From positions 25,855,081 to 25,919,080 of the forward strand of contig NC_089722.1 of NCBI RefSeq assembly GCF_035083965.1: DNA of 64,000 nt, given 5' to 3'. The notes under the pieces were generated by a model. The model was given only the letters and a program-made list of their open reading frames with translations. It made no database searches and was not told the DNA's origin. The position numbers and the translations under genes are program-made. The stretch's first letter is position 1, and every line of letters begins with the position of its first letter. This document shows, piece by piece, positions 28,575 through 63,074 of the stretch. The DNA is from Branchiostoma lanceolatum (taxonomy: Eukaryota > Chordata > Leptocardii > Amphioxiformes > Branchiostomatidae).

Positions 28575-28652
28575 ATGACCAAGTTCGGTATTGGAATCCT
28601 CATTGCGCTTGCTGGTGGAGCCATTGGCCTTATTGTGTGGCTCGTAGCCTAG
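28575..28652 (+). CDS. Micropeptide mp1, single membrane segment, 25 aa
   Basis: First ORF of the array. After MTKF the peptide is one hydrophobic run rich in Gly and Ala (GIGILIALAGGAIG), with small residues spaced as in glycine-zipper helices, ending with a Trp near the membrane edge (VWLVA). An in-frame TGA lies two codons upstream, so the short start is firm. The stop is 11 nt before a good donor (G|GTAAGT at 28664), implying a spliced 3' UTR. MTKF is shared with mp2. No known family recognised; coding status rests on composition, architecture and position. Confidence 0.55.
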   Translation: MTKFGIGILIALAGGAIGLIVWLVA

Positions 28653-29183
28653 TCAAATCTTCGGTAAGTATTCTCCCTTTTTAATGTCATTGGTCTCGTC
28701 AAACCACACCCAAAACCCAGGAGTACGGGTGGGTCAATTTTGACAAGCTCCAGTGGCTGTAGGTAGTAGCTCCAGTACTGTGGACGTAACGTTAGATCGT
28801 TAAAAAACAATTTAGTTGTCAAGTTTCTCGGTGATTTATCTGTCAATGTGACTCAGTTCCTTCAGGGTCATGTGAGAACATAAAGCTGTTGAAGGTTGAA
28901 CGAAAAGTTTTCATTACTAGAAGACTCAAATGTAACTCTGAAATATTTTTCACAAGTTATTGTATGTACAGCAACAGGAAGCTAGGGAGTAATAGCAGCT
29001 GGTTTGTTGATGAATCCGGGAAAAGAAAAATCATGAAAAGTTGAGAGGTCGGAGAGAATTGACCCTGACTGCATTTTACCCAAGGGTGTGTAGACCTCAG
29101 ATAAGGTCGATTTTTTACTAAGGATTACTTACACCACGCTTAACGAATGTGTAAGCAAAGAAAGTAAGCTGGAAAAGGCAGCG

Positions 29184-29264
29184 ATGACGAAGTTTTGTTG
29201 CGTTATCCCGACAGTCGTTTTGCTCGTAATTGGTGGATTTATCATCTACTTCATGTACCTGTAG
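29184..29264 (+). CDS. Micropeptide mp2, single membrane segment, 26 aa
   Basis: Starts MTKFCC and continues as a membrane helix (VVLLVIGGFIIYFMYL) ending in aromatic residues at the very C-terminus. The shared MTKF start suggests a relationship to mp1 about 600 bp upstream. A donor (CTG|GTGAGTG) follows 42 nt after the stop, at 29307. With no charge after Lys3, the likely topology is a short N-terminus in the cytosol and the C-terminus ending in the bilayer. Function unknown. Confidence 0.55.
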   Translation: MTKFCCVIPTVVLLVIGGFIIYFMYL

Positions 29265-29764
29265 GGGTCCGAGACGCTCAGTTTGCAAGTCAATCTTTCT
29301 TAGCTGGTGAGTGAGGACTGTTGCAAAAGTTTTGAGTATAGAACGAGCATGTTGAATATGGGCGCCATTTTGAATTTTTTTTTTACCCGTCAAAAGCATT
29401 GGAGCATCGTCTATGATCTTTGGTACCCTTTCTGACTTTTTCACGGTTGATATGGCCTCTGGGACCTTTTCAGTCACAACCAAAATGGCAAGATCAAAAC
29501 AGAAATATTTGTTGGATTTTCAACTAACCAATAGCAGGACAAGATTCATATATAAGATATTTCCTACTTAAACTGTCTATTTTACCAAGGAGAACCTCCC
29601 TGATTAAGCTTATACCGACTTCATTTTTGTAAACGATATGTTTGGCTATGACCCGAAATGATTATATCATTTTTATGTCAACAGTCAATTACACTTTGAA
29701 AAGGCTGATCAGTAATTTATATGTTCACATCAATGGATCAAATTCTTTCTTTTGTTATAACGCA

Positions 29765-29854
29765 ATGTCCCGTAAGTTTCTCCCACGACTTCTGCACATC
29801 ACAATAGTGGCATATTTGAGCGCTGTGCTCTTCATATTGATTCCTGTGATGTAG
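29765..29854 (+). CDS. Possible micropeptide mp3, 29 aa
   Basis: MSRKFLPRLLH gives a positively charged N-terminus before a hydrophobic stretch (ITIVAYLSAVLFILIPVM). Caution: the hydrophobic part is encoded by a pyrimidine-rich tract that ends at its own TAG and could equally be the 3' splice site of the next exon, which carries mp4. If real, mp3 and mp4 would form a dicistronic exon with only 19 nt between them. The frame is also open upstream, to 29642. No paralogue found. Confidence 0.3.
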   Translation: MSRKFLPRLLHITIVAYLSAVLFILIPVM

Positions 29855-29873
29855 TTACGTGGAGGTTTCTACA

Positions 29874-29984
29874 ATGAAATTCGTGTGCTTTAAAGAACAA
29901 GACCGTGAAGCGCTTGTGACGAGCGGTGTGCTGTTCGTTACTTGTCTGTTTTGCTTGTGTATCCTCTATGTTTTCTTCGGCTGA
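29874..29984 (+). CDS. Micropeptide mp4, single membrane segment, 36 aa
   Basis: A charged N-terminal third (MKFVCFKEQDREALV) precedes a Cys-rich hydrophobic segment (VTCLFCLCILYVFFG). The DREAL motif and the Phe-Gly end resemble mp8 (RREAI and FLG), placing it loosely in the 29.9-32.9 kb group. The stop is followed by one base and then a strong donor (GAG|GTAAGT at 29986). Five cysteines in 36 residues is striking: either palmitoylation or disulfide linkage is possible, but this is speculation. Confidence 0.55.
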   Translation: MKFVCFKEQDREALVTSGVLFVTCLFCLCILYVFFG

Positions 29985-30204
29985 GGTAAGTTAGTGAAAT
30001 TAGTCGCCAATTACTTAATGCAGTTGTGCATTGTATGAGTGCATTTCATGAGAAACTGTTTCAAATGAGCATCGTTATCTAAAATGTTTTATGTGGAATA
30101 TTATAGTTCTTGCATACTTTTGTTAAAAAAAGCGTTTTGGGTTCATATATGTCAAAGCAATATAACCTCCTTGGTCAAAGTGTTATCACAGTTGTTCATA
30201 GACA

Positions 30205-30278
30205 GCATGGTTTCACGAATTCGTTCGTTGTCGTGCTTTTATCTTTCAAGTTCCTCATAGTGTCTGTACATTGACTGC
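30205..30278 (+). pseudogene. Decayed partial copy of mp6
   Basis: Aligns with the C-terminal half of mp6 (VVVLLSFKFLIVSVH then stop, against VVVILSFGFLILSAH) and is followed by the same donor context (CCCAA|GTAAGA). The segment that in mp6 holds the ATG is missing, and sequence between is shortened, so no start codon serves this frame. It is part of a tandem duplication (roughly 30045-30540 against 30705-31270). Confidence 0.6.
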
Positions 30279-30444
30279 GCCCAAGTAAGATTGTGATTAA
30301 AATCAGACCATCTGATTAAGTGATAATTATCTTTCTTAATCAGATATAGTCTTTGTGACGACACAGTACAGACAACAACCCAAATAATAAAACAGACTGG
30401 ATCAAATGTTCTTTTACCATCGCGATCTATTAGTCTTAATCGCA

Positions 30445-30531
30445 ATGTCACAGGAAAGAAGGGACTGTATTCTCCGTATTTTACTCTTTGGTTCAGTGGT
30501 TGGAGGACTACTTTACTTGCTTCTCGCATAG
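30445..30531 (+). CDS. Micropeptide mp5, single membrane segment, 28 aa
   Basis: MSQERRDCILR, then ILLFGSVVGGLLYLLLA. It is a clear paralogue of mp7: both share RILLFG, VVGG and LYLLLA while the N-terminal charged residues differ. An acceptor-like CTATTAG ends 12 nt upstream of the ATG. The stop is 6 nt before CACAAG|GTAAGA (donor at 30538). Topology by the positive-inside rule: charged N-terminus cytosolic, C-terminus within or just beyond the membrane. Conservation of the frame between two copies whose surroundings have diverged supports coding. Confidence 0.72.
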   Translation: MSQERRDCILRILLFGSVVGGLLYLLLA

Positions 30532-30853
30532 CACAAGGTAAGAAAATGCTTAGACTTTTTTGAGAACTATCTGAAAGAATCAATTCAATGCTCTTTTTTT
30601 AATGTACACTTTTCTGTAAAGCCTACTCAACTTGTGAAGTTGTTGTGGTGCGCTTGGAGAGTAGCGTCCTTGCACTGAAAACTTAAAGGTCATATGAATT
30701 TGACGTTTGTGAACCATTTCAAATGAGCATCGTTATCTAAATGTTTTATGTGGAATATTTGTTCTAACACACTTTTGTTCAAACAGCGTTTTAGGTTCAT
30801 ACATGTCAAAGTGTTATCACATTTGTTCATAGCTAAACAGGACTACCAGTACA

Positions 30854-30967
30854 ATGTTTTACATCGTAGACACGTACCAACAGACAGCATGGTTTCACCA
30901 AGGAGGTTTTATATATTTTGTTGTCGTGATTTTGTCTTTCGGGTTCCTGATACTGTCTGCACATTAA
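30854..30967 (+). CDS. Micropeptide mp6, single membrane segment, 37 aa
   Basis: The longest of the array. A polar N-terminal half with MFYIVDTYQQ and TAWFHQGG is followed by IYFVVVILSFGFLILSAH. A splice acceptor (AAACAG, exon from 30842) sits 12 nt upstream of the ATG, and a donor-like AA|GTAAGA follows 9 nt after the stop. A damaged paralogue lies at 30205-30278. Together with mp7 it forms a duplicated two-ORF unit; whether the two ORFs share a transcript cannot be told. Confidence 0.5.
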   Translation: MFYIVDTYQQTAWFHQGGFIYFVVVILSFGFLILSAH

Positions 30968-31170
30968 CCGGCCCAAGTAAGATTGTGATGAAAATCAGAC
31001 CATCTGATAAAGTGATAATTACCCTTTTTTAGTCAAATATAGTGATAATTAAGTCATAATTACCTTTTTAGTCAAATATAGTCTTTGTGACCACACATTA
31101 CAGACGAAACGAATAAAACAGACACTGGACCACATTTTGTTACCATTGCGAACTCTTAGTTTTGATCGCC

Positions 31171-31260
31171 ATGTCACACTTAGAGAAAATGAACTGTATT
31201 TTCCGTATTTTACTCTTTGGAATCGTAGTTGGAGGATTTCTTTATCTGCTTCTTGCATAG
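31171..31260 (+). CDS. Micropeptide mp7, single membrane segment, 29 aa
   Basis: MSHLEKMNCIFR, then ILLFGIVVGGFLYLLLA: paralogue of mp5 with one extra N-terminal residue. Acceptor CTCTTAG ends 11 nt before the ATG, as in mp5. The stop is 6 nt before CACAAG|GTGAGA. The GxxxGG-type small-residue patch in the helix (GIVVGG) is shared with mp5 and could mediate helix packing. Function unknown. Confidence 0.72.
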   Translation: MSHLEKMNCIFRILLFGIVVGGFLYLLLA

Positions 31261-31672
31261 CACAAGGTGAGAAAATGCCCATACTCTTCTTTTTTCAATA
31301 TTAAAAAGAAACACTTCAATACTCTTTTGATAACTAAGAAGATTCATTACCGTATTTGATCACTAGAACTCAAATCTGAAATATGTTATAATTGTTTAGA
31401 AAAATGACGTTGAAACCCCACGACAATGTACCCTTTTTGGTAGGCCTTCATCTCAATAGCCTAGTCAACTTGTGAAGTTGTTCTGACGCGCCGAATATCT
31501 GCTTGGGGTGTAGCGTCCTTGCACTAAAAACTCAGTAAAGGTCATGTGAATTTGTGACGTAGCAAGTTGTCCCCGAATCTCCGCCATGTTTTTTTCAGTT
31601 GTCAAATGTGAAGTGCGCTGAGTAAGACGTCTGTTGAAGTTCGCTGTTACCACTGGTCCCCAAACTAAGACC

Positions 31673-31771
31673 ATGCTCATACACTGTGACGCCGGGCGTC
31701 GAGAGGCCATCATCAAGATACTCTTCATGTGTTTAGTCTGCGGGGGCTTCTGTTATATGTTCCTCGGTTGA
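31673..31771 (+). CDS. Micropeptide mp8, single membrane segment, 32 aa
   Basis: MLIHCDAGRREAIIK, then ILFMCLVCGGFCYMFLG. The layout matches mp5 and mp7: a basic cluster, Ile-Leu, a Gly-Gly pair, an aromatic, and a small final residue, with extra cysteines. A strong acceptor (TTTTTTTCAG, exon from 31599) precedes it, and the stop is separated by one base from GAG|GTAAGT (donor 31773). The ORF is thus contained in one internal exon of about 174 nt. Confidence 0.65.
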   Translation: MLIHCDAGRREAIIKILFMCLVCGGFCYMFLG

Positions 31772-31772
31772 G

Positions 31773-32913: not shown

Positions 32914-32915
32914 AG

Positions 32916-33948: not shown

Positions 33949-33986
33949 AACTCCGCTTTTAACACAGATCAGCAGCTACAGTAAGC

Positions 33987-34076
33987 ATGAGCATTAACAA
34001 CCAGGTTGTCAACGTTTTCGCTGTCATTGCTGGAGTGGTGTTCGGCCTTTTCCTGGTCTCGATGGGCATGATATAA
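33987..34076 (+). CDS. Micropeptide mp10, single membrane segment, 29 aa
   Basis: MSINNQVVN, then a membrane helix (VFAVIAGVVFGLFLVSMGMI). First of the 34-46 kb group, defined by NNQ or LN(M/I) before the helix and a SMGM(I/V) or TMGMV end. An in-frame TAA nine codons upstream fixes the start. Exon 33949-34080: acceptor CATTACAG, donor ACAG|GTAGGT 4 nt after the stop. A (CA)n tract follows in the intron, and the 3' exon can be traced to 34694-35470. The N-terminus is uncharged apart from the amino group; Asn and Gln sit at the membrane face. Confidence 0.78.
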   Translation: MSINNQVVNVFAVIAGVVFGLFLVSMGMI

Positions 34077-34133
34077 ACAGGTAGGTCGCTTTCTTCCAAA
34101 ATCGCCAACACACACAATTGTAGATTTACGTGC

Positions 34134-34438
34134 ACATACACTGGCACACACAAACACACGCACACGCACACGCACACGCACACGCACACACACACACACA
34201 CACACGCACACACACACACGCACGCACGCACACAAACACACACAGACACACACACACACAGGCACACACACACGCACACACACACATACACGCGCACGCA
34301 CACACACACACACACACAAGCACACACACGTACACACAGGCGCACACACACAGGCACACACACACGCACACACATACACGCTCACACACACACACACAAA
34401 CACACACACACGTACACACACACGCACACACACACACA
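34134..34438. repeat. (CA)n-rich microsatellite
   Basis: Interrupted CA repeat with CG variants, immediately after the mp10 donor. The equivalent position after mp11 also carries a CA tract (37781-37912), so the repeat predates the duplication. Confidence 0.95.
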
Positions 34439-34693
34439 CTTGATACAAACACATGCACATATCAACCAACCAACTAGCCAACCGACTAATCAATTAGTCG
34501 GTAATACTAGTATGACATTTAGTTCATCATTTTCACAGTGCAGACTGCATTCCATTTTGTACCGCTTTCTTTCAGGAGAATGCTGACCTGGTAGACTCGA
34601 GCTAAATGGTATCAAAGGTTCAGTTGCAGGTTGTCTTTAGTTTCAGCCAGCCTCAATTTGTAAAGAGATTTTGTTTTTTGTTCCACACCTTAG

Positions 34694-35470
34694 GACAGCC
34701 GCATGTCACGCTAGGAGCTCGCAGGAAGGATGGACGGTAGCTACAGGCAGCGGGCTGGGCTATGGACACCAAACATCCAGCCATCACCTCCTCGGCGTGG
34801 TCGCAGCGACACCTACGGACTTCTGCAGGAGCTGCTGCGATGGTCGCCGACGAATTCAGAGCTGTTTCTTCGACATTGCCACCGTCGATGATTTGTAGAC
34901 ACCTACCATCAGTCCTGCCAGCCTACCAACTGTCGCTCTTCCGTTAATTTATCACAGCCAACCCTTCTCCACACTAACAAATGCGTGGTGGGACATACGC
35001 AATTGCTTTAAAGATTACACCTCTCGTGTCGCCATGTATCTTCCTTGTGATTCACCAAAGCTTTAGACTATAATGACGACATGATGACGTGAAATACATC
35101 TCTGTTTCTCGTCACGATGATGTCATCAGTCTTTGAGCTGTATAGTAGTCAGACTGTACCGTAATGATGACGTAAATTTTACCATGAGATTTTGTCATGA
35201 TATCGTATATGGTGGACTACACTCGACCAATACTTTGCATTGAATGATAGCCGCTCTTTTGTGCTCCGATTTCTTAGAGACCTCATGTCACTTTGACATA
35301 ATGTGTTTTATCCTGACATTGTGTCTAATGTAATCGTTTAGTCTTTATGAAGTTTCGAGCCTGATTGAAACGTGTTGTAGACTAACTCTACAGTCGTATT
35401 CACATCGTGTAAGCCACATGATTCGAGGTAAAGTTTTGACTGGTCTGTTGTTTCCTCTGGTGCAAATAAA
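34694..35470 (+). other. Predicted 3' UTR exon of the mp10 gene
   Basis: Begins after TTCCACACCTTAG and runs to AATAAA at 35465-35470. The mp11 and mp12 units have matching segments. It contains several TGACG/CGTCA motifs and complementary blocks (GATGAC with GTCATC, CGTGA with TCACG) that could fold as RNA. Frames in it (for example from GATGGTCGCCGACG) are not kept in all copies and it lies after the mp10 stop, so I treat it as untranslated. Confidence 0.6.
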
Positions 35471-36996
35471 GCAAACTAACACGCGAAAAACCGACTGTTT
35501 GAGTCCAGTTATATTTATCTTTAGCAGATAATATGTTAAGGCATTTTGTTTTAATTATAAAGCATGTGTATGAGTGAGTGAAAGGTGGTTTGATCGATGA
35601 GTAAGTTATTTGTTAAGTCATTGCATGCTATAAACAAACATACTGTGCATTGGAAGAATGCATCTAGTTTTCAAAAAGTACACCTGCAAACTGTAGATTG
35701 CATTGAAAACATGTGTTTTCTGCGCAGTGTCATAAACCATTGCAGAGTGGTTTAAAAACATGATAAAACTTCCAGTCCACATCTTAGCAGTTTTGACTAT
35801 CTACTGGGTTGGTTTCATAGTGTAGACCGAGACCAGTGATGACGCGAATTAGGTACAGTATAACGTTGTATTCGCTCCGACATGAACAACGTTTTGGGAG
35901 GTAAACATCTTCAGAAGAACGAACAGAACGATGCCAACATGCGTGTCCATAATGTAAGTTGTGGTAGGCCTAGGGTCTAGTCTATCTACCATTCCACCTA
36001 GACTCAGTCTCCTTGACATCCGTCGCATCAAACATGGATGATGTGCACATAATCGCATTCAAAACATCAGTACCAGCATTTATTTGCACGAAATCAAAAC
36101 ACGACTCCACAGAGGGGCCTCCGAGATCATGCCTGGAGCCAACACATCTGCTATCCCTTTTAGAGAAGGTGCCGGGGTTATTTCAACACGTCAAATGTTT
36201 CTCAGTATTCTCTGAAAACAAAAGACGTGTATTTGAAGTTGAATAGAATAGAGGACTAGTGTCATTTTGTAATAGAATGTAGATTATATAGCTACATGTA
36301 TATATATATATATATATAGGGAAGAGAGAAATTAACTGTTTAATCCTGTACAAAACTTATTTCCCTATTTCATAAACTAAAGTACTGCAGAAAATTCAAA
36401 TTTCTAATGCAACGATACAAACCGCCCAAATAGCACTCCTAATCAGGATGCGTCCGGAACCAAATAACTTAATTGTGCACTGATCGATCATTGCAGCCAT
36501 ACATTTTCATCACATTTAGAGCCTATAGCTATGCTCATGTTATTATAATCCACCATATAGATGAATAAAAACATGTGAATCTTTTTTTTCGGTGGCATAT
36601 ATGACGCCACGACATGACATGAAAATATTTCTCATGAATATAATGCAGATATCATTAAACCTTTGATAGCATTTCCATCTAATTACATGTATAGGCTTAC
36701 ACAATTATCCATGCAAAACGGCTGTTATTTTCTGTCCAGTTACGATTCGGTTGACGTCACTGGTCTAACCAGTCTTCAGACAAGTAGGAAGCTCGTATTT
36801 ACTACATTCTGGGGCATTTTCGTCTACACGGACTGTTCGCAGCATTGGCAGGTGAGACAAGAGGTAGACGTCTATATCAAGGTTGCTTTGAAAGAGTGTT
36901 TTGCGGCATTGAGTCCGCTTTTTTTTAGCTGTTAACAGTTCTTACTCTTCATCTTCTCCAAGAAAGGGCACAGAGCTAGAGGAAATCGCTGTCTGA

Positions 36997-37069: not shown

Positions 37070-37082
37070 AGGCTAGAGATAG

Positions 37083-37635: not shown

Positions 37636-37734
37636 ATGAAGTCACTGAGGATTAACAACCAGGCTGTCTGCTGTGTCGCTGTTCTTGTGGGGCTGATATT
37701 CAGCGGATTCCTGATTTCTATGGGCATGGTATAG
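37636..37734 (+). CDS. Micropeptide mp11, single membrane segment, 32 aa
   Basis: MKSLRINNQA, then VCCVAVLVGLIFSGFLISMG and MV. Paralogue of mp10 with a longer basic N-terminus (Lys2, Arg5). Exon 37600-37738: acceptor GCATCACAG, donor ACCG|GTAAAT 4 nt after the stop. The frame remains open upstream within the exon, so a few extra N-terminal residues from an earlier exon are not excluded. Between mp10 and mp11 I count 13 amino-acid-changing codons against 3 silent ones, nearly all exchanges among hydrophobic residues. Confidence 0.78.
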   Translation: MKSLRINNQAVCCVAVLVGLIFSGFLISMGMV

Positions 37735-37779: not shown

Positions 37780-37780
<1 letters not shown>

Positions 37781-37840
<60 letters not shown>

Positions 37841-37858
37841 ACACACAGACACACACAA

Positions 37859-37909
<51 letters not shown>

Positions 37910-37912
37910 CAC
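37781..37912. repeat. (CA)n microsatellite
   Basis: Nearly pure CA repeat downstream of the mp11 donor, at the position homologous to the mp10 CA tract. Confidence 0.95.
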
Positions 37913-38155: not shown

Positions 38156-38985
38156 GACAGCCACATCTCATGCTCTCAGGATGGATGGACGGTAGCTACA
38201 GACAACGGGGCTGGGCTATGGAAACCAAACACAATGGCCCAGTTATCACATCGTCAGCGTGGTCGCAGCGACAACTACGGACTTCTGCAGGAGCTGCTGC
38301 GATGGTCGCCGACGAGTTCAAAGCTGTTTCTTCGACATTGCCACCGTCGATGACCTGTAGACACCTGCCATCAGTCCTGCCAGCCTACCAACTGTCGCTC
38401 TTCCGTTTATCACAGCCAACCCACTGTCGTTATAAGTACCACGGTGACCGTCTCTCACCAGTGTTCACTGATAGCCATCTTCTCCACACTAACAAATGCG
38501 TGGTGGGACATACGCAATTGCTTCAAAAGTTACAACTCTCGTGTCGCCATGCATCTTCCTTGTTATTCACCAAAGCTGTAGACTATAATGACGACATGAT
38601 GACGTGGAATCCACATCTCTTTCTCGTCACGATGATGTCATCAGTCTTTGAGCTGTATAGTAGTCAGACTGTACCATAATGATGACGTAAACTTTACCAT
38701 GAGATTTTGTCATGATATCGTTAACGGTGGACTACACTCGACCAATACTTTGCATTGAATGATAGCCACTCTTTTGTGCTCCGATTTCTTAGAGACCTTA
38801 CGTCACTTTGACATAATGCGTGTTATCCAGACATTGTGTCTAATGTAATCGTTTAGTCTTTATGAAGTTTCGAGCTTCATTGAAACGTGTTGTAGACGAA
38901 CTCTACAGTCGTATTCACACCGTGTAAGCCACATGATTCGAGGCAAAGTTTTAACTGGTCTGTTGTTTCCTCTGGTGCAAATAAA
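38156..38985 (+). other. Predicted 3' UTR exon of the mp11 gene
   Basis: Follows acceptor GTCCACACCTTAG and ends at AATAAA (38980-38985). Over a 140-nt window around the TGACG motifs it differs from the mp10 copy at only about 8 positions by hand count, far fewer proportionally than the ORFs. A 218-codon frame here (from 38023) is an accident of this copy: it is not kept in the mp10 or mp12 copies. Confidence 0.6.
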
Positions 38986-38989
38986 GCAA

Positions 38990-41900
38990 ATTAACACGCG
39001 AAAAAGTCTGTTTGAGTCCAGTTATTTTTTTATCTTAAGTAGATAATATGATAAGGCATATCCGCTGAATCATAAAGCATGTGTATGAATGAGTGAAATG
39101 TTGTTTGGTCAATGAGTGAGTTATTTGTAAACTCATTGTTATAGACAAACATACTGTGCATTGTAAGAAGTTATCTGTAACTTTTCAAGAAGTATACCTG
39201 CAAACTATAGATTCCATTGAAAACATATGTTCTCTGCACAGTGTCGTAAATTTGCAGAGTGATTTGAAGACACGATAAAACTGCTAGTCCATATTTTAGT
39301 AGTTTTGACAATCTGAGTTGATTCGTGGGTGTAGATCTAGACCAGTGATGATGCAAAGTTAGGTTAACGTTGTATTCGCTCCGACAAGAACAACGTTTGG
39401 GGAGGTACACATCTTCAGAAGAACGAACAGAACGACGCCAACATGCGTGTCCATAAGTTGTGTTAGGGTCTAGTCAGTCTACCATTCCACCTAGGCTCAG
39501 TCTCCTTCACATCCGTCGCATCAAACACAGACGATTTGCACGTAGTCGCGTTCACAACATTGGGGCCAGCACTCATTTGCATGGAATCAATTCACGACTC
39601 CCCAGAGAGGCCTCCGAGATCATGCCTGGAGCCAAAATACCTGCTGTCCAGTCAATAGAATATGCTAAGGCCGGAGTTTTTTTTTTATTTTTTTTAATTT
39701 TTTTTTTATTCAAACATTTAAACAGAAATACAGAGTGACAAAAGGGGGCGCACTCAAGTGCAAGACTTATTTTGACGCTACCCCTTACATAAAAAAAACA
39801 TACATATTTTACAGAGAGAAATCAAGTACAAGTGAAAAGCAAAGGAAAATCACATCAGACAGAAAATAATACATTGTACTTAATATAACAAGAAAGGATA
39901 CGCGCAAGTCCAGTTTCCCACCCACTGATGAAATAGTTGGACACATTACAAAAAATGCCAGGACAACTGTGTTTTAAAAACGCTTAGTTGTAGTGATGAA
40001 GTTTTGGGTTGTTAATAGAATATTGGAGTTAACAACAGATGAATGTGAAGGACTACCACGGAGTAAAACGGAAACTTTAGCGTTGTCCGATAATGATGGG
40101 AAGTTAAGGGTGTGTCCTAAGAGCCTGGAGAGTTTGCCGAGGAGGGTTGAGCGTTGGGCATTGTACATAGGGCAGTGGAGTACTGTTTCGCGTTGGCACC
40201 CGCAGTTACATGCTGGGCTGTTTAGCAATCCTCGAGTAAAGAGACTGTGGTTTAGACTACAGGTGCCAATGCGAAGGCGTAATAGGTGAACACAGGAAAG
40301 GCGAGGGCCATGGCTAAAATAGTTGAGCTTAACAGGTCGTATGGTTTTTAAGAGAGCAGTTCGAAATTGACAGTAGTTTAAAGAGCGAGTTGACAAATCG
40401 AGGTTGTTCCAGTGGTGCGTCGAGTACGGAACAAAGGACCTGGCAAAACGATTTGTTGAATAATTTAGAGGCCGGAGTTACTTCAACATGTTAGGGAATT
40501 CTTCTTAGTTTTCCTCAAAACTGGAGACGTGTGGCATATATGACGCCTATGCATGACATGGAAATATTTTCCATGAATATAATCCAGATAGTATTCAAAC
40601 CGTTGGCAGCATTTCCATCTAAGTACAGGCTACCGAGAGTACATATGCAAAACGGCTGTTATCTCCTATTGATAATTAGTTACGATTCAGTTGACACCGT
40701 ACGTCACTGGTCTAACCACTTATTTACACAACCAGACAGCTCGTATTTCCTACTTACTGGAGCATTTTCGAGTTCGTCTACACGGACTGTTCGCAGCATT
40801 GATTGACAGGCGGAACGGTAGGTAGATGTTTATATTAAGGTTGATTTACACTACAGTTGTTTAATACGCCGTGTAACAATCAAACTGAAATATCCACTTC
40901 GCGTCATTATTAAGTTATTGACGTATATGTGTTCTTTATGTATCCGGATGTTTCATGCCCAGCTTAACTGGGTCACTTCGAGTCGAACCTTAGACTGCAC
41001 CGATGTTTTCATCATATGATAACTCTTATCTCCTCAGTGCTTTTTTGACACAAAGGATAAAACAGGTGAACAGAAATGATACATGTATACATGTATAGAA
41101 GGAATACCTGGTTATCAACCACACACAATGAAGCCCCCTGTTACGCCTATCCAATTGTTACTCTGCATCAGACGGTTGGTCAAACTGACTTTTGTTGCTG
41201 TCTACTAGTATACTACAACCAAATTAGAGCGCGGGTCCGGAGGTAGCCCAAGGATTACTGAATTCTTGGCAGATAGATTCCACTAAGATTATTGAAAATA
41301 GGTGATGTCAGTTTTAGACCACCCCTGCCATCAAATCATTATTTTTTGATCAATTTGAATAATGATGATGCTTTCCTTACTCTCTGCACTCAACATGCAT
41401 GTACTAGATGCAAGTTGAAAAAGTGTTTTTAATGATATTGATTCAGCAAGGACTAGGAACCGAATTGGGACCATCCAGTCCTGATTCAGAACCGGGTTTG
41501 CTACTACGCCACACCCACAACCACCCGAGCTGTGTGTCATTATTCAGATGGCCAATCCACATGAAAACAATAAGACCTATTAGCAAATGTTACAGCAAAA
41601 AAAACCTCAAATGTCGCAACGTCAAAAGAGCAGAAAACGCACTATGCTGTCTGCAATACTCAAGAACATGAATGGTTAACCTTTCTGATGACTTTAACTA
41701 TACGCTAAGAATCGGTAAGAGAGAAAAATGTCACGGTTTTTCTGGGCCATCTATAATACAAAGTCGTTGAGGGAATGTAGGTCAACAAAGCTTTGTTTAC
41801 TGTTGATGCAAATCTTACCTTCTTTGTGCGCATGCCTATGGATAAAGAATTTGTAACTTGGCGAAAGTTGTCTACAACCATTTTGTGACAAGAAGGTAGG

Positions 41901-42383: not shown

Positions 42384-42473
42384 ATGGGTCTAAACATGCA
42401 GGTTGTTTGTGTGGTGGCGATCATCGTGGGACTAATGTTCAGCGGCACCCTCATCACCATGGGGATGGTGTAA
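42384..42473 (+). CDS. Micropeptide mp12, single membrane segment, 29 aa
   Basis: MGLNMQVVC, then a helix with VVAIIVGLMFSGTLITMGMV. Paralogue of mp10, mp11 and mp13. Acceptor CTACATACAG gives an exon from 42361, 23 nt before the ATG. The position of the expected donor reads ACAG|ATAAAA rather than GT, so the usual intron cannot be removed there, although a diverged copy of the 3' exon persists at 43.2-44.06 kb. The transcript may use another donor or end in the former intron. The ORF itself is well kept. Confidence 0.75.
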   Translation: MGLNMQVVCVVAIIVGLMFSGTLITMGMV

Positions 42474-43229: not shown

Positions 43230-44063
43230 ACGCTAGAAGCTCTCAGGAAGGATGGGCGGGAGCTACAGACAGTCGACTGGGCACCAAAACAACCAGTCAT
43301 CACATCCTCAGCGTCTTCACAGCGACACCTACTTTCTGTTGGAGCTACTGCAACAATGGCCGCTGCCTCTTCGACATGGCCATCGTCTTGATCTGTAGAC
43401 AACTTACCGACTGTCACTCTTCTGTCTAAAGCCAACCCACCGTTGTTTTAAGTACTAGCACCACGACTGAGTGTCTCTCACGATCACCAGTGTTCACTGA
43501 TAGTCATCTTTACACATTAACAAATGCGTGGTGGGATATATGCTGTAACTTCACACACTACAGAGCTTGTGTCTCCATTGAATTCAGTCTCCTTGTTCAT
43601 TTCAGCGAAGCTACAGACTATAATGACGACGTGGTGACGTAAAATTCACCTCAAACGGTTTTTCGTCACGGTGATGTCATTTGAGCTGTATAGTAGTCAG
43701 ACTGTACCGTAATGATGACCTAAACTTTACCATGAGATTTTGTCATGATATCGTAATGGTGGACTACACTCGACCAATACTTTGCATTGAATAATAGCCG
43801 CTATTTTGTGCTCCGATTTCTTAGAGACCTTACGTCACTTTGACATAATGTGTGTTATCCTGACATTGTGTCTAATATCATCGATTAGTCTGTATGAAGT
43901 TTTGAGCCTGATTGAAACGTGTTGTAGATTAACTCTACAGTCGTATTCACATCGTGTAAGCCACATGATTCGAGGCAAAGTTTTGACTGGTCTACTGTTA
44001 CAGGAAGAATTCTGAAATTCACATTGTTAATCTAATTGTGGATCCAAATAAGGTGCAAATAAA
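43230..44063 (+). other. 3' UTR-like exon of the mp12 unit
   Basis: Third copy of the shared 3' exon, diverged at its start but highly similar from about 43615 onward (AATGATGAC, TTTTGTCATGATATCGTAA), with AATAAA at 44058-44063. A 50-bp stretch before the poly(A) signal is absent from the other two copies. Confidence 0.5.
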
Positions 44064-45419: not shown

Positions 45420-45620
45420 AATGACATGCTGCTACCTGTAATTAATGTACATATTGGATGGATGTTTGTTGCGTTGTCATCGTTACTGTATGTATTGTTA
45501 TTTTGATGTTGTATTTGTATGTGATAAGAAGTCCAGGAAGACTAGTGATGTGCCTTAGGGCCCATCGCTAATGGATTTTCTTCAATAAAGTTCAATAAAG
45601 TTCAAGTTCAAGTCGAGCGA
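45420..45620 (+). mobile_element. LINE 3' tail
   Basis: Ends with GGGCCCATCGCTAATGG and the repeated tail TTCAATAAAGTTCAATAAAG, a CR1/L2-like 3' terminus. No coding portion is present. Confidence 0.55.
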
Positions 45621-45832: not shown

Positions 45833-45916
45833 ATGAGTCTGAATATCAAGGTTGTACTTGCGATGGCGATCATCTTGGGACTGATGGTCAGCGTCAGCCT
45901 CTTAGGGGTGGTGTAA
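45833..45916 (+). CDS. Micropeptide mp13, single membrane segment, 27 aa
   Basis: MSLNIKVVLA, then a helix with MAIILGLMVSVSLLGVV. Most diverged member of the 34-46 kb group: it lacks the MGM ending and is two residues shorter than mp12, but LN(I/M)xVV and AII(L/V)GLM(V/F)S align. Acceptor TCGTGACAG gives an exon from 45817. The stop is 3 nt before CAG|GTAAAA. A conserved upstream segment at about 45110-45160 likely holds its first exon. Confidence 0.75.
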   Translation: MSLNIKVVLAMAIILGLMVSVSLLGVV

Positions 45917-45954: not shown

Positions 45955-46335
45955 GTTATTTACCTTCGCCAAGAAGGTTATGTTTTCGATTTTGCTAAAT
46001 TTATGGTAGAGTGGCTGTGGATGTAAACAGCATAACTCGAGAAGCTGTAAATGGATGCGCATCATTTTTGGTAGGTGGGCAGGATTCGGGGAGTCCCTAG
46101 GGAGACAAAAGTCAAGTTCGATAATGGGTCTCTTAGTGGTTATCTGCGGTACTGCAGTGGAATTTCAAAGTTTGAGGTCTCCTTTTCTGAAGGTGCCATG
46201 GTAATCATTCCTGAGGGGTGGATAACCCATGGGACAGGAAATACGCGGTGTAAAATTGGCCCCCTAGCGGCTATTTGGAACTGCAGTTGGCCTTCGGCGG
46301 AGGATGACTTATTTGTTGAAATACACAAGTTATCA
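45955..46335 (+). repeat. Dispersed repeat, unassigned family
   Basis: Shares GGTTATGTTTTCG, AGCATAACTC, TTTTTGGTAGGTG and GGTACTGCAGTGGA(A/G) with 57655-58270, where the module recurs several times. Probably an old non-autonomous element common in this genome. Confidence 0.5.
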
Positions 46336-48378: not shown

Positions 48379-48471
48379 ATGGTTTGGGGGAATATTTTCG
48401 AGAACGCTTTGGTGCTGTTTATCGTGCTCGGGGCTGTTGGCATCGTTTGGGCCTTTATTGTCACGATGTGA
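48379..48471 (+). CDS. Micropeptide mp14, single membrane segment, 30 aa
   Basis: MVWGNIFENA, then LVLFIVLGAVGIVWAFIVTM. Pairs with mp15: 16 of 26 aligned residues are identical, including EN, VLFIVLG and VWAFI. The N-terminal FEN plus a long Leu/Val/Ile helix recalls sarcolipin (LFLNF at the start of its helix), but this is a weak, short likeness. The frame is open upstream to ATG 48271, so longer forms of 46 or 66 residues are possible; mp15 has a stop at the equivalent place, which favours the short form. Donor AGA|GTAAGT follows 22 nt after the stop. Confidence 0.72.
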   Translation: MVWGNIFENALVLFIVLGAVGIVWAFIVTM

Positions 48472-48597: not shown

Positions 48598-48770
48598 GAA
48601 TGGGGTCGCGTGGCGTAACGGCAGGGTGTTCGACCTAGAGCCCAGCGGTCCCGGGTTCGAATCCACCAACTCCACCGATGTCATGCCCTTGGGAAAGGCA
48701 CTTAAAACACGACTTTCCTCACTCCACCCAGGTGTAAAAATGGGTATATTGTTCTCTGTACGCGGCTCTG
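48598..48770 (+). mobile_element. tRNA-derived SINE
   Basis: Head with box A TGGCGTAACGGCAGGGTG and box B GGGTTCGAATCC, then CCCTTGGGAAAGGCACTTAA, CTTTCCTCACTCCACCC and GTGTAAAAATGGGTAT. Same family as the copy at 63899. Sits in the predicted intron after the mp14 ORF. Confidence 0.8.
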
Positions 48771-49727: not shown

Positions 49728-49823
49728 ATGATGGGTCTGGATAAGATCGTGGAGAACTTTTCGGTGTTGTTCATCGTTCTCGGCTCTGTTGCTGTCGTGT
49801 GGGCCTTCATTATGATGGTGTGA
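49728..49823 (+). CDS. Micropeptide mp15, single membrane segment, 31 aa
   Basis: MMGLDKIVENFS, then VLFIVLGSVAVVWAFIMMV. Paralogue of mp14. An in-frame TAA two codons upstream fixes the N-terminus. Two donors are possible after the stop (GAG|GTGACT at 49825, ACG|GTGAGT at 49850), the second the better match. One Lys and acidic residues precede the helix; Trp sits six residues from the end. Poly-G (49308-49323) lies 400 bp upstream. Confidence 0.75.
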   Translation: MMGLDKIVENFSVLFIVLGSVAVVWAFIMMV

Positions 49824-52510: not shown

Positions 52511-53237
52511 TACTTGTGGTGTAAAAGATGTGTCTAGTATTGCTGTATTCGTAATGTATCTCATATAGATCTGAAAAAAAGATGATGTCTATGAATTCAG
52601 GTAACCCCTTTCGCCAATGCTCACTCGACCTCGTTGTTGGACTCATACAATGTATGATATTAAGAGAGTACACAAATGTTAAATGCCCCAGTCATATAGG
52701 GACTTATTAAAAAAATTCCTGTACAATCTATATTCTGATATCGTTTATCTGTTTCGTTGGTTTATTCGTTGTGAAATGTATTTTTGACGACGATTACTGG
52801 ATTTGCGTTTTCTGCTGACGAGCATTCTTTGGATTCTAGGCTTGTCAGCGCCTTAGGGAGAGAAGACATGTTTTCAGGTATTGAAGAAAGTGAAAGAGAT
52901 AGGCATTTGAGAGGTCAGTAGCCTGTAGAGTGGAAGTGGCAGGATATTTGCTCACTTCAAAGGATAAGTTCTTAAGCTTGTAGGTAAATACATGTACTTA
53001 AGACACCGACAGCTACATTGCCAGAGAACAATGACCGACGAGCCGTTACGATGCACCCTATCTCTCACATGCAGAAGTCGCTTAGAAAACCGATTTACCT
53101 CTTTGCACAAAGTATAATTTTCTGCCTCATTAACGTTTTACTCTCTCTATTTGGTCGATGACTTAGGTTACCATAAATTCTCTAACTCTTAGTTTAGACA
53201 ACACAGTTGCAACAATGTCATTCATGTAATATCTATT

Positions 53238-54569: not shown

Positions 54570-54674
54570 ATGAATGCAACAATGCGTCCTTGTACACTGC
54601 GCGAGAAGCTGATATTCGGCCTTGCACTGGCCGTTGCCTGTATCTTCATCTTAATGGCATCTCCCTTCATGTGA
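54570..54674 (+). CDS. Micropeptide mp16, single membrane segment, 34 aa
   Basis: MNATMRPCTLREK, then LIFGLALAVACIFILMA and SPFM. Singleton in the window. Its LREKL start resembles the charged leader of the 30-33 kb group, and NAT is a potential N-glycosylation site if the N-terminus were lumenal. Met5 could be an alternative start. Donor AAG|GTTTGT follows 15 nt after the stop, and an acceptor-like TTACATGCAG at 55295 could begin the 3' exon. Confidence 0.5.
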   Translation: MNATMRPCTLREKLIFGLALAVACIFILMASPFM

Positions 54675-54689
54675 AGATCGTCCTATAAG

Positions 54690-55042
54690 GTTTGTCACCT
54701 CAGAAAAAAGCTTTTCGGTGGGCATTGTTTTGTGGGCGTTCCCAGTGTTTTATTTGTTATGTGTTATGGGTGTTCTTGGCATTGATTCAAAGGGAGAATA
54801 TATCTCTGTCTTTTTCGTTTATGACTTTGATCACACATGTCCATAAGGTTGAACAATGTGCAATGGAAATGATTTAGATGTAGTTTTAACATATGGTGTC
54901 TAGTTGGAGCATAAGTGAAGAGAAGGGCGGTCACTGTTCCCATGACCTCCGGCAATGTTGAACTTACTCATGCATTTTTACCTACACACGTACATGCACG
55001 CGAGTCTTCAGCGAGTTAATTGATGAACTGTTTTCGGGTCCT

Positions 55043-55112
<70 letters not shown>

Positions 55113-56592: not shown

Positions 56593-56679
56593 ATGTCTTA
56601 TGCGAATCAGGCTGTCATCCTAGTGGCCATATTAGTCAGCATTTTCTCTTTGGTCCCGTATCTCATCACCATGCTGTGA
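56593..56679 (+). CDS. Micropeptide mp17, single membrane segment, 28 aa
   Basis: MSYANQAVIL, then VAILVSIFSLVPYLITML. First of four closely related ORFs (mp17-mp20) with NQAVIL, a central Pro followed by an aromatic (PY or PF) and the LITML end. An in-frame TAG six codons upstream supports the start. Donor TTG|GTGAGT follows 31 nt after the stop. The NQAV motif is shared with mp11, suggesting these groups have a common origin. The conserved helix-kinking Pro and invariant C-terminus suggest a specific partner rather than mere hydrophobicity. Confidence 0.78.
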   Translation: MSYANQAVILVAILVSIFSLVPYLITML

Positions 56680-57654: not shown

Positions 57655-58270
57655 ATAGTACTCGGGGTAGATTATGTTTTCGGTTGAGCCAGCTGTTTGG
57701 TGGGTCTGTATGTATGTCAAGAGCATAACTCAAGAAACCTTTGATGAATCTTTATGATTTTTGGTAGGTGTGTAGTGGTTGTGCAAAGGAAGGTCAAGTT
57801 CAAAAATGGTTTACCTTGCGTTTTTCAACAGTACTGCAGCAGACTTTTAATTTTTGTGCGTTTGTATGTAGGCGAAAAAAGTGACGGAAACGTTGATGGA
57901 TCTTCATGATTTTTTGCAGGTGTGTAGATGTTGTGGAAACAGAGATCAAGTTCAAAAATGGTTCTCCTGGCATTTTCCGTCGGTACTGCAGCGGGCTTTG
58001 TGTGGATGTGTAATTCTTGTGGACAACATAACTCAAGAAGCTGTTGATGGATCTGTATGATAATGAGTGGATGGGTAGGGTTTACGGAAAGGAAGGTCAA
58101 GTTCGATAATGGGCCTTCTAGCGAGTACCTAAGGTACTGCAGTGGAGCTTCAAAATTTAGTGGCATATTTTCTGAAAGTGCTATGGTCATGATATTTGTA
58201 TGGTAGATAGTTCACACCACAAGAAGTAAGTTCTGTAAGTTTGGGCCCCCTAGCGGCTTGTTTAGAACTG
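57655..58270 (+). repeat. Dispersed repeat, several modules
   Basis: Repeated units with GCATAACTCAAGAA, GGTAGGTGTGTAG, AAGGTCAAGTTC and AGTACTGCAGC. Related to 45955-46335. No coding content is credible. Confidence 0.5.
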
Positions 58271-58561
58271 CAGTGGGTGTTTTTGTTTTGACCTTCAGAC
58301 ATGAATAACTTTAGAAGGGGTCGACAGATCGTCGTGAAGTTTGGTATGTAGAGAGCTCAGATGGTGCTTTACACAATCGATGTATAATTATAGAAAACAG
58401 GAGCTAATCTGCATAATTAGTAAGGATAGTTTGTAAATCCAAGTACATTTCACAATGGGCCGTGTGACAGTGTTTTGCCGCTAACAGGTCAACAGAGGGC
58501 CTTGCCTAGAAGTATAAATAAACGAATTGGGCACATAAATAAACAGTTGGGACAGTCTCAC

Positions 58562-59540: not shown

Positions 59541-59627
59541 ATGTCTCTTGGTAACCAGGCGGTTATTCTCATAGCTATACTCGTCGGGATTTTCACTCTG
59601 GCACCATACTTGATCACCATGCTGTAA
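59541..59627 (+). CDS. Micropeptide mp18, single membrane segment, 28 aa
   Basis: MSLGNQAVIL, then IAILVGIFTLAPYLITML. Close paralogue of mp17 (22 of 28 residues) and mp19 (24 of 28). The ATG follows AAGAGAG. After the TAA comes a conserved stretch (CGGCGCCGAAAAGGACTTAA) and then TCG|GTAAGT 36 nt from the stop. An overlapping frame ending KRDVSW that spans the ATG in three copies is not preserved further upstream and is not called. Confidence 0.8.
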   Translation: MSLGNQAVILIAILVGIFTLAPYLITML

Positions 59628-60439: not shown

Positions 60440-60640
60440 CGTAAGACTAGACCGATAGATTAGATCCACTCACACCAGAATGGACCATTTCTTTTTTCGA
60501 TAAATGTGGTGTTTTTTTTTACGTGCTCGATATGTGTCTCTCCTTAAACACGGGACCTACGGCTTTACGTTCCATCCGAGATGACGTCCCTAACCAAAGC
60601 TAGATGATAATTTTAAATTTCACCTGAGTCGAGTACTACT
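60440..60640 (-). mobile_element. SINE body
   Basis: Same body as the 56.9 kb copy (CTCGACTCAGGTGAAA, ATGGAACGTAAAGCC, CCCGTGTTTAAGGAGAG), without a recognisable tRNA head. Confidence 0.65.
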
Positions 60641-60971
60641 GGTCCCATGTGCAGCTGCAGACTGAAACTCAAGCGTAATAAAATGGTCCGTCTACACAGA
60701 AGTAATTTGTACACAGCTTCATATATTTTTAAGTCCTTGATCTACTTTTCTATTGGAGAGTTAGTGATCTACTTTTTGCCCTGCCGCGGCTTGCTCTATT
60801 GTTTCCACAAACCGGTTGTTCCACCTCTTCAAATACAACTCTCCACTGGATTCTGGGATACGACACACGACACAACAGTCATTGCTAATTTGACTATAAT
60901 CAACTGGGCCCTACAGGGTAACACACCAGCCTTAATTTTGGTCCGTGCGGTTCAAGTTCAACACAAGAGAG

Positions 60972-61058
60972 ATGTCTCATGGTAACCAGGCGGTTATCTT
61001 GATAGCTGTAATCCTCGGCATTTTTACTCTGGCACCATACTTAATCACCATGCTGTAA
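60972..61058 (+). CDS. Micropeptide mp19, single membrane segment, 28 aa
   Basis: MSHGNQAVIL, then IAVILGIFTLAPYLITML. It differs from mp18 at 10 of 87 nucleotides, and the flanks on both sides are also closely alike, showing a recent tandem duplication of a unit of about 1.4 kb. Donor TCG|GTAAGT lies 36 nt after the stop, exactly as in mp18. Confidence 0.8.
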   Translation: MSHGNQAVILIAVILGIFTLAPYLITML

Positions 61059-61094
61059 CGGCGCCGAAAAGGACTTCACGGAATGCCTCTATCG

Positions 61095-62987
61095 GTAAGT
61101 GCGTGGTCTCAGTCATGTCGCCATTGTTAAGGACCATCTGATCACGAACGACACATTTTTGACAGCCGTGGACTAAAATGAAGTTTATTTGTGTACAGTA
61201 TATTGTACAGCCAGGGAATTGGAGATTACAAGTATCAAAAGTTGCTTTAAGAATGTTTAGAAAACGCCGTAATAAACGAAAGTTTGCCCTTGACGGTTGG
61301 CCAGTTGCCATGTAAAGCACCAGATCCACACCCGACATTCCACAGAAAGGAGCGTCACACGCATACATGCATCAACAAACAACCCAGTCTTGACTGACGA
61401 CAAGCAAATTCTCATTAACAGATATAAAGAAATAAATATCGAGGAAAGCGTTTATCGTGTTAAAAAAATGCTACTTGATTAGAATCTAATTGGCCATGAG
61501 TGGAGTATATGGAGAGGGACTCGCCGTAAAAAAGGGACAAAAGCCGATAACTCTTTTAGAGCAGGACTTGCGTCGACGCAGTTTTTCGCTGTAGTCCCAT
61601 TCTGTGCTGGAAGGCTCGGTACAATTCTCGTCTGAGCGTGTTGATCTGTCCATGACACACTGTGGTGCAAGTGCCACTGTACATGTTGTAGCATGAGACA
61701 CTGAGAATTGAAGTAGGGTCTTGACTTCTTTATCCCAATTGCGAAGCATGTGTTAACAATATGATTCGTTGCCCAATTAGTGTACAACGCAAGGGCGTTC
61801 TTCAAGGACAGAAGACATCAAGACTATGATTTTCTATGCATTCAGTCAAGTATTTCTCAGAAAATCATCTCGATAAACATTCTCCAAAATCCTGGATGTC
61901 CAATCTTCATCGACGCATTTCTCAGTTCTTTATCTTTCGCATGTTATCCTGAACGCTTAACTGTACTACTGACTCCATGTGCAGCCGCAGAACTCTCACC
62001 TTCCCTACTTATTCCATCGTTATCTAAATGTCTTTTCATACATCATTTTACACAACTTCATCTTTTCAAGGGCGTCGTTATATTGAAGTCCTTGATCTAT
62101 CTTACTGATGGAAAGTTTATTCCCATTCTGTGCTGGAAGGCTCGATACAACTCTCGTCTGAGCGTCTTGATCCGTTCATGGCACACAGTGGTGCAAGTGC
62201 CACTGTGGTAGCGTGAGACGTAGGAGATAGAAATAGATAGCTAGCTGCCGCGCCGCGTGCCTGCGAAGCTGGTGTGTTACGCCTAATGGCGGTTATACCG
62301 GCTATATAGATACAGATACAGATACAGAAATAGGGTCTTTATCCCAATCCCGATGGCGAAGCATACATGTATGTTAACAATATGATTCGTTGCCCAATTA
62401 GTGTACAAGGTTCTTCAACAAGGATAGAAAACAAGGCATCAAGACTATGATCTGCTTTGCATTCAGTCAACAAGTATTTCTCAGAAAATCCTCTCCAAAA
62501 TCCTCTCCAGTTACTTGAGTAACTGCTATTTGGTGTATCCTATTGCTTGGATGTTCAATCTTCATCGACGCATATTTCTCATTTCTTCATCTTTTGCATG
62601 TCATCCAGAACGCTTGACTGTACTACTGACTCCATGTGCAGCCGCTGAACTCTCACTTCAACCCTAACTAGTAGTTATTCCATCGTGATCTAAATGTCTT
62701 TCCATACATCTTTTTACACATCTTCATTTTTTCAAGGACGTCGTTATATTGAAGTCCCTGATCTATTCTACTGATGGACAGGGATTGGTCTACTTTTCGC
62801 CCGTCTTGCTCTATCATTTACACCAACCGGATGTTCTACTTCTTAAAATTCAACTCTCCACTGGATTGTGGGATACGTGGCTTACATAACGTCACACTCA
62901 TTACTGAATCGACTATACTTTACTCCCTTCGGAGTAACGCACCAGCCATAACTTCTGTTCTTACGGTTCAAGCTCAATGTAAGAAAG
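61095..62987. other. Spacer between mp19 and mp20
   Basis: Includes two copies of a segment with CCCATTCTGTGCTGGAAGG, CTCGTCTGAGCGT and CACAGTGGTGCAAGTGCC (about 61598 and 62121; a third version near 57414), which belong to the duplicated unit. A LINE tail lies at 62236-62330. No other ORF is supported. Confidence 0.4.
62225..62335 (+). mobile_element. LINE 3' tail with (GATACA)n
   Basis: GCCTGCGAAGCTGGTGTGTT, GGCGGTTATACCGGC, then ATATAGATACAGATACAGAT. Inverse orientation to the larger fragment at 51925-52510. Confidence 0.6.
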
Positions 62988-63074
62988 ATGTCTCTTGCTA
63001 ACCAAGCGGTTATCCTGGTAGCTTTACTCGTCGGGATTTTCACCGTGGCACCCTTCTTGATTACAATGCTGTAA
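62988..63074 (+). CDS. Micropeptide mp20, single membrane segment, 28 aa
   Basis: MSLANQAVIL, then VALLVGIFTVAPFLITML. Fourth of the NQAVIL group; PF replaces PY. The stop is followed by TAACGGCGCCGAC, as in mp18 and mp19, and CAG|GTAAGT 42 nt later. The upstream region carries the same CCACTGGATT(G/C)TGGGA block. The array may continue beyond the window. Confidence 0.8.
   Translation: MSLANQAVILVALLVGIFTVAPFLITML

Follow-up and report, generated by a model that had tools for sequence, protein, structure and literature searches.

We analysed a 64,000-nucleotide (nt) stretch of forward-strand DNA from the lancelet Branchiostoma lanceolatum (contig NC_089722.1, positions 25,855,081 to 25,919,080), hereafter the window. 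Between positions 28575 and 63074, over ∼34 kb, it carries an array of 18 accepted ATG-to-stop frames of 25-36 codons, all on the plus strand, each encoding a peptide that is mostly one C-terminal hydrophobic helix. A sequence-only reading had described about 20 such frames of 25-37 codons, all on the plus strand. Strand and size were right (25-36 codons with the starts accepted here) and the array was confirmed, the count becoming 18; two frames that were likely on the earlier list, at 30149 and 30854 (the matching is our guess), show no coding constraint. Judging from the DNA, the array is most probably a new tandem family of micropeptides encoded by genuine genes.

The frames were sought by a blind scan, independent of the earlier list, for ATG-to-stop frames, 20-45 codons long, that contain 17 uncharged residues in a row with a mean Kyte-Doolittle hydropathy of at least 2.3. 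Over 28.5-63.2 kb the scan returned 17 frames on the plus strand versus 1 on the minus strand, and in the left flank (1-28.5 kb) 1 frame per strand. In 200 dinucleotide-preserving shuffles the mean was 0.53 frames and the maximum 3, compared with the 17 observed on the plus strand. Splice donors, scored with a simple position matrix built from textbook frequencies, reached at least 6 bits within 50 nt past the stop in 14 of the 17 scan frames (those at 30854 and 55023 included), compared with 0.07 in the shuffles. Chance is excluded for the set of frames.

Thirteen of the 17 scan frames were kept and five members were added by paralogy, giving the 18. One of the added members, at 31673, was missed by the scan through its hydropathy; the other four, at 37636, 42384, 45833 and 48379, were missed because an upstream ATG opens a longer frame (75, 60, 76 and 66 codons, respectively). 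For these four (A2, A3, A4 and B1 below), and for C1 and F, the accepted start is the ATG shared with paralogues or judged likeliest, not the first in frame.

Several candidates were rejected. Among the scan frames, those at 45458 and 47005 had neither donor nor paralogue, and that at 55023 encodes a Cys-Val repeat translated from a GT microsatellite. The frame at 30854 (E2, 30854-30967) showed no coding constraint; with its copy E1 (30149-30274) it differs at codon positions 1, 2 and 3 by 4, 4 and 2 substitutions, the two ATGs are non-homologous, and E1 lacks a purine at -3. E1 and E2 nonetheless each have an unexplained 7.4-bit donor; these two copied hydrophobic frames, ending in donors and free of codon-position bias, are perhaps untranslated region (UTR) exons of the adjacent C genes. 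The frame at 53051 was rejected on a donor of only 1.6 bits, and that at 35760 on its copy near 39280, which has no ATG and an early stop.

The members, all on the plus strand, are given here with the donor position counted past the stop. Two hydrophobic frames beginning with MTKF lie leftmost: T1 (28575..28652; 25 residues, ending VWLVA; 8.8 bits at 11 nt) and T2 (29184..29264; 26 residues, ending FMYL; 10.7 bits at 42 nt). In group C, C1 (30445..30531; 28 residues, first in-frame ATG at 30406; 10.4 bits at 6 nt) pairs with C2 (31171..31260; 29 residues; 10.6 bits at 6 nt) at 75% identity, and C3 (31673..31771; 32 residues; 11.7 bits at 1 nt) and C4 (32824..32913; 29 residues; a weak 3.9 bits at 2 nt) are each 34% identical to C2. 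C0 (29874..29984; 36 residues; 11.7 bits at 1 nt) is a possible distant member of this group, weakly placed at 14% identity to C2. Group A comprises A1 (33987..34076; 29 residues; 10.6 bits at 4 nt), A2 (37636..37734; 32 residues, longer frame from 37507; 7.1 bits at 4 nt), A3 (42384..42473; 29 residues, longer frame from 42291; 7.5 bits at 30 nt) and A4 (45833..45916; 27 residues, longer frame from 45686; 7.2 bits at 3 nt). It is followed by B1 (48379..48471; 30 residues, longer frame from 48271; 6.5 bits at 22 nt), B2 (49728..49823; 31 residues; 10.5 bits at 26 nt) and F (54582..54674; 30 residues, or 34 from 54570; hydrophobic; a weak 6.1 bits at 43 nt), the least supported accepted member. 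Group D, with 28 residues in each peptide, closes the array: D1 (56593..56679; 8.5 bits at 31 nt), D2 (59541..59627; 8.8 bits at 36 nt), D3 (60972..61058; 8.8 bits at 36 nt) and D4 (62988..63074; 12.6 bits at 42 nt).

At least four paralogous groups had been claimed. A, B, C and D were all seen, A and D as one family: a profile of A1-A4 matched D1-D4 in the six-frame set of the window with expectation (E) values of 8e-5 to 0.024, the next match standing at 1.2, and a profile built on D by itself matched A2 at 8e-5, with A1 and A3 far weaker at 1.1 and 3.2. These matches unite A and D in a single family of eight members. A second family is made up of C1-C4, with C0 and F resembling it only weakly, and a third of B1 and B2. 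T1 and T2 have only their first four residues in common; identity within the two frames does not exceed that of the upstream flank (47%). Comparison of the A/D profile with the C profile gave no match, so that a common origin of all 18 is suggested only by their shared gene layout. Group profiles run across the window identified no broken copies, and none outside the array near the E-values of members (best other match 0.12). The tandem copies differ in age, supporting the earlier description of the family as expanding.

The shared layout is most evident in the donors. Donors of at least 7 bits within 50 nt past the stop were present in 15 of the 18 accepted frames, compared with 10 of 117 other plus-strand frames and 7 of 141 minus-strand frames of 20-45 codons (Fisher p = 7e-11 for accepted versus other plus-strand frames). 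Counted in 25-nt bins past the stop over 20 frames (the 18 plus E1 and E2), donors numbered 12, 7, 0, 2, 0, 0, 1, 0, 1, 0, 1, 1, 1, 0, 0 and 0, with 0.84 expected. The only 6-mers found in at least five of the 18 60-nt post-stop stretches were GGTAAG and GTAAGT (7 each). The donor signature recurs in every one of T, C, A, B and D, which a single accident spread by copying would not explain. In animals, an intron in the 3′ UTR triggers nonsense-mediated decay once the exon junction lies more than ∼50-55 nt past the stop; with the donor usually at 43 nt or less, the junction would fall within the zone that spares the mRNA. The predicted layout is thus a coding sequence in one exon, opened by an ATG that has a purine at -3 and closed by a stop, with a donor usually in the next 43 nt, and the remaining 3′ UTR would be spliced on past the coding exon. 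Above-threshold acceptors occur within 40 nt 5′ of the ATG only in C4 (13 nt), A2 (36 nt) and A1 (38 nt), and 74 nt 5′ of it in C3; the remaining frames may start within first exons.

One or more probable 3′ UTR exons of A1 lie at approximately 34572..35490 on the plus strand, with AATAAA at 35465, and are copied 3′ of A2 (AATAAA at 38980) and partly 3′ of A3 (AATAAA at 44058). Blocks of 244 nt 3′ of A1, A2 and A3 (35209-35452, 38724-38967 and 43756-43999), each preceding its AATAAA, are 94-95% identical, compared with 73% for the A1 and A2 coding sequences; gene conversion of the 3′ UTR or faster change in the frames could account for this. CA microsatellites at 34145-34439 and 37782-37912 occupy the same place, just past the donor, in what would be the introns of A1 and A2. 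At least one AATAAA separates C0 from C1, C1 from C2, and adjacent members throughout the run from A1 to D4, in a region where the motif is common by itself (23 on the plus and 20 on the minus strand in 28-64 kb). Upstream of the frames, a k-mer and TATA box search was unproductive: no 7-mer was common to at least five of the 18 upstream regions, and some 6-mers occurred in 5 or 6.

Every one of the 18 accepted frames carries a purine at -3; with E1 and E2 included the count is 19 of 20, compared with 54% of the 742 plus-strand ATGs of the region (p = 7e-5). Only 1, 2, 5 and 8 codons separate the ATG from the upstream in-frame stop in T1, B2, D1 and A1, respectively, which speaks against longer proteins there. 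Furthermore, the blastn match between D1 and D2 starts at the ATG and ends on the first base of the stop.

Evidence of coding also came from comparison of paralogues. In the diverged pairs similarity is confined to the frame: D1 is 68-71% identical to D2, D3 and D4 within the frame and 33-52% in the flanks, and B1 and B2 are 72% identical within it and 40-54% in the flanks. The ratio of nonsynonymous to synonymous substitution rates (dN/dS) was 0.12 for D1-D2 and D1-D3, with dS saturated in D1-D4, and 0.21-0.30 among D2-D4. Differences in group D pooled by codon position numbered 37, 17 and 64 at positions 1, 2 and 3, and synonymous excess was significant for the three D1 pairs (p ≤ 5.1e-5), D2-D4 (p = 0.012) and D3-D4 (p = 0.008). 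By this pattern of substitution, group D is under strong purifying selection. Constraint was also found for B1-B2 (dN/dS 0.35, p = 0.02), C1-C2 (0.24, p = 0.004), A2-A3 (∼15 of the 66 nonsynonymous sites differing, and 16 of the 21 synonymous ones, p = 1.7e-5) and A1-A3 (p = 0.002). Overall, the synonymous excess expected of a coding tandem family was detected at p < 0.05 in nine of the 12 pairs covered by the test, T1, T2, C0, C3, C4 and F lying outside it. Calculation of dN/dS on the groups, as proposed in the sequence-only reading, revealed constraint in D, B, C1/C2 and A2/A3, and none in A1/A2 and A3/A4.

Gaps and decay were consistent with this. Within the frames, the DNA alignments had 0, 3, 6, 9 or 15 gapped positions per pair, and A2 differs from A1 by a 9-nt in-frame insertion directly past the common ATG. 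When neutral decay was simulated to the observed distance, frame and helix both survived in 0.6-2.2% of runs with the five pairs differing by 28-38%, and in 14-19% with D2-D4 and D2-D3.

Some results weigh against reading all 18 frames as constrained genes of one layout. Synonymous excess was not significant for A1-A2 (dN/dS 0.80, p = 0.49), A3-A4 (0.91, p = 0.59) and D2-D3 (p = 0.065). Among the closer pairs identity is not confined to the frame: D2 and D3 are 97% identical just past the stop versus 89% within the frame, A1 and A2 74-85% near the frame versus 73% within it, and C1 and C2 up to 86% in the flanks versus 82% in the frame. For T1, T2, C0 and F the lack of a close paralogue leaves selection without a measure. 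In A2, A3, A4, B1 and T2, 30-59 codons are open 5′ of the ATG. Donors fall below 7 bits in C4, B1 and F, and above-threshold acceptors near the ATGs are few. Finally, no AATAAA lies between T1 and T2, T2 and C0, or C2 and A1 (ATTAAA occurs at 31300 and 33817), so that separate transcription units are uncertain for the left end. On balance, we consider it very probable from the sequence evidence that the frames are real translated genes.

By hydropathy (best 19-residue window, the length thus being imposed), all 18 peptides have a start of 3-12 residues, a hydrophobic core and a C-terminal tail of 0-5 residues, and the net charge of the N-terminus is only -1 to +2. Each peptide would accordingly consist of 3-12 residues followed by a helix of ∼20 residues reaching the last residues. 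AlphaFold2 predicted one helix, from residue 3 to 31, for C3, the sole peptide modelled (mean predicted local distance difference test score 84). A chain this short is still mostly within the ribosome tunnel at termination, so that membrane entry would have to come after release, as for a tail-anchored protein. Tail-anchored topology, with the N-terminus in the cytosol, is likely on these grounds.

A small-xxx-small motif is present in 17 of the 18 peptides, compared with 10.0 expected from shuffles, a count that overstates the case, paralogues being non-independent. Conservation in group A is concentrated on one helix face, with V8, A12 and G16 among the face residues (permutation p = 0.016); the same test fails for D (p = 0.84) and is weak for A and D together (p = 0.07). 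The motif and the group A face favour, without proving, helix-helix docking. We propose that the helix of each peptide would dock sideways against a helix of some larger protein of the membrane, such as a pump, channel or receptor, and tune its activity; the copies along the array would then be versions that differ in expression or affinity. For this chain of steps as a whole, up to regulation by docking, we would put the chances at about even. That the partner is SERCA or another P-type pump, a suggestion drawn by analogy, is doubtful. Tentatively, and with more reserve than for docking itself, the cluster may be viewed as ∼18 single-helix in-membrane regulators diverged into partner- or tissue-specific versions, a 'membrane-helix code' with a common layout, in a class that standard gene finders overlook.

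Comparison with known systems identified likenesses of shape. Regulins (sarcolipin, phospholamban, myoregulin, DWORF and the insect sarcolambans) are, like the array peptides, very short tail-anchored single helices, a geometry common to many unrelated peptides and assigned here by hydropathy. They differ in showing no sequence match to the array beyond chance in a low-power test: among 140 comparisons (20 frames, including E1 and E2, with 7 known peptides, including OST4) the best p was 0.006, which is chance level. As a yardstick, SLN-PLN, SclA-SclB and PLN-SclA match each other (p ≤ 0.008) but the majority of the remaining known pairs fail to (SLN-MLN, p = 0.89). The luminal tail RSYQY, a feature of sarcolipin only and not of all regulins, ends none of the 18 peptides. 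In PMC8396278, sarcolipin is described as having residues 1-6 in the cytosol and 7-26 in the helix, of 31, and a role is given to a polar or proline position (SLN Asn11, PLN Asn34, DWORF Pro15). Six of the eight A/D peptides carry Asn-Gln at aligned positions 5-6, at the start of the helix, and A1 has Asn9, the register relative to regulins being unfixed without an alignment. According to PMC11475943, the sarcolamban gene encodes more than one such peptide. By analogy the array may act in the manner of regulins, but it cannot be classed among them.

OST4 is a protein of ∼37 residues with one helix, single-copy elsewhere. It resembles the array peptides in size and in its one helix, and differs in its hydrophilic C-terminal tail and in the lack of a sequence match (best pair C1, p = 0.07). 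Pfam, which includes an OST4 model, gave no regulin or OST4 family at E ≤ 10 for the 20 frames (the 18 plus E1 and E2), a search of low power for such short peptides; four peptide-family matches appeared at E 0.023-0.41, all below the cut-off. NCBIfam returned sub-threshold matches only for 10 of the 18 peptides, and the PDB, searched by sequence with profiles of A/D and of C and with T2 (B1, B2, T1 and F being outside the search), gave best E-values of 0.8-1.4. In bacteria, the type I hydrophobic peptides, Ibs and Ldr among them, are growth-inhibiting single helices of ∼20-35 residues, encoded by tandem genes and controlled by antisense RNA; the tandem copies are alike, in an analogy of shape only, with no homology claimed. 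Drosophila pri/tarsal-less and other polycistronic small open reading frame genes likewise have a set of related tiny peptides at one locus, and according to PMC11475943 the four pri peptides come from one common mRNA, contain an LDPTGQY motif and have no predicted structure. In the array, by contrast, every frame occupies a separate exon, usually with a donor to itself, in a stretch of 34 kb.

Other explanations of the array must be weighed against a set of separate regulator genes. The most serious, in our view unlikely, is that the array is one transcription unit, or a few, with alternative coding first exons having their own promoters and common 3′ UTR exons, promoter choice selecting the peptide, as happens in gene clusters that work by promoter choice. 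Most coding exons do have a donor and no above-threshold upstream acceptor, as first exons would, and with no AATAAA in the T1-T2, T2-C0 and C2-A1 intervals some left-end exons lack an obvious terminal exon. This is countered by the copied 3′ block followed by AATAAA at each of A1, A2 and A3, and by the AATAAA motifs between C0 and C1, C1 and C2, and all neighbours from A1 to D4, frequent as the motif is by itself. A somewhat fainter prospect is a diversified immune multigene family of membrane-active effectors, antimicrobial, cytolytic or anti-viral. Effectors for defence or fertilisation had been suggested from the sequence, and a tandem multigene family with diverged members would suit them, as would dN/dS near 1 in A1-A2 and A3-A4 beside 94-95% identity of the downstream 244-nt blocks. 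They fit less well, however, with the strong purifying selection in group D and on A2 versus A3, with the N-terminal net charge of only -1 to +2, and with peptides too short for a signal peptide plus a mature peptide.

Two further explanations deny that the frames are genes in their own right. The frames could be the final coding exons, with the membrane span, of larger proteins of which the upstream exons went unrecognised, the ATG being incidental and the post-stop donor belonging to a 3′ UTR intron of such a gene. The acceptors 13-38 nt 5′ of the ATG in A1, A2 and C4 and the 30-59 open codons before it in T2, A2, A3, A4 and B1 would agree with this. It is nevertheless very improbable in view of the short distance from stop to ATG in T1, B2, D1 and A1, D1-D2 homology that starts at the ATG, a purine at -3 in every member, and the absence of any above-cut-off Pfam domain in 28-63 kb. 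The last explanation, chance frames in T-rich intergenic DNA that readily encodes hydrophobic helices, draws on the widespread potential of thymine-rich non-genic DNA for transmembrane domains reported in PMC7005711. As an account of the array it is scarcely credible given the shuffles (0.5 versus 17 frames), the splice donors and the synonymous excess, and is hard to hold for groups D and B, C1/C2 and A2/A3; F, T1, T2 and C0, taken singly, could still be such frames. A de novo origin long ago may apply to the array.

The sequence-only reading of the locus as a tandem family of single-helix micropeptide genes was thus borne out, with several members under purifying selection and the family unlike any that was searched. 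Its view of the peptides as membrane regulators is compatible with the sequence, and the lineage specificity that it proposed is conjectural. Single-helix micropeptides are under active study. To our knowledge, regulators of this kind with 25-36 residues otherwise come as one gene or a few, dispersed through a genome, and the micropeptides described so far as solitary genes or in twos, frequently within RNAs supposed to be non-coding. The class of helix and its size are known, and the family, its number and its arrangement appear new. Among the titles listed by full-text literature searches, none was on a tandem array of transmembrane micropeptide genes, weak evidence of novelty with subscription papers outside their scope. 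Clustered paralogues serve as internal replicates for measuring selection, hitherto wanting in the field, making peptides of 25-30 residues callable as genes from DNA alone, and the signature (a hydrophobic frame, a purine at -3, a donor within 50 nt past the stop and synonymous excess) is applicable to any animal genome. If the peptides do regulate a pump or channel, the array would be a natural mutagenesis series of that contact.

The absence of any ordinary gene between the frames, also claimed earlier, was upheld by a six-frame Pfam scan of 28.0-63.0 kb with X at stops, which gave no match above curated cut-offs (sub-threshold PT repeat and CD45 only). As a positive control, an equal scan of two frames of 13-28 kb recovered TSP1 and aspartate dehydrogenase exons. 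Left of the array, between 5041 and 27700, the neighbours look like ordinary animal genes: a somatomedin B domain exon (5041-5388, plus strand; 22.4 bits, just below the 23.1 cut-off), a TSP1 domain exon (15278-15589, plus strand), an NYD-SP28 sperm-tail exon (22905-23249, minus strand) and an aspartate dehydrogenase exon (26842-26961, plus strand).

An Rfam search and a tRNA scan of the window gave nothing useful, and repeats of several kinds were seen. A minus-strand open frame of 167 codons (39974-40477), without a Pfam match, lies inside a stretch that interrupts the copied A2 unit, and we take it to resemble the tail of the reverse-transcriptase protein of a long interspersed element. Two copies, 75% identical, at 48601-48700 and 63901-64000, in which ARAGORN called no tRNA, carry what we take to be a tRNA-like B box, and are presumably a tRNA-derived short interspersed element. 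A tandem repeat at 13786-14139 has a period of 131 with 2.7 copies and 95% matches. Lastly, a diverged repeat with ∼150-nt periodicity, 69-78% identical, is present near A4 and D1, at 45975-46290 and 57669-58277.

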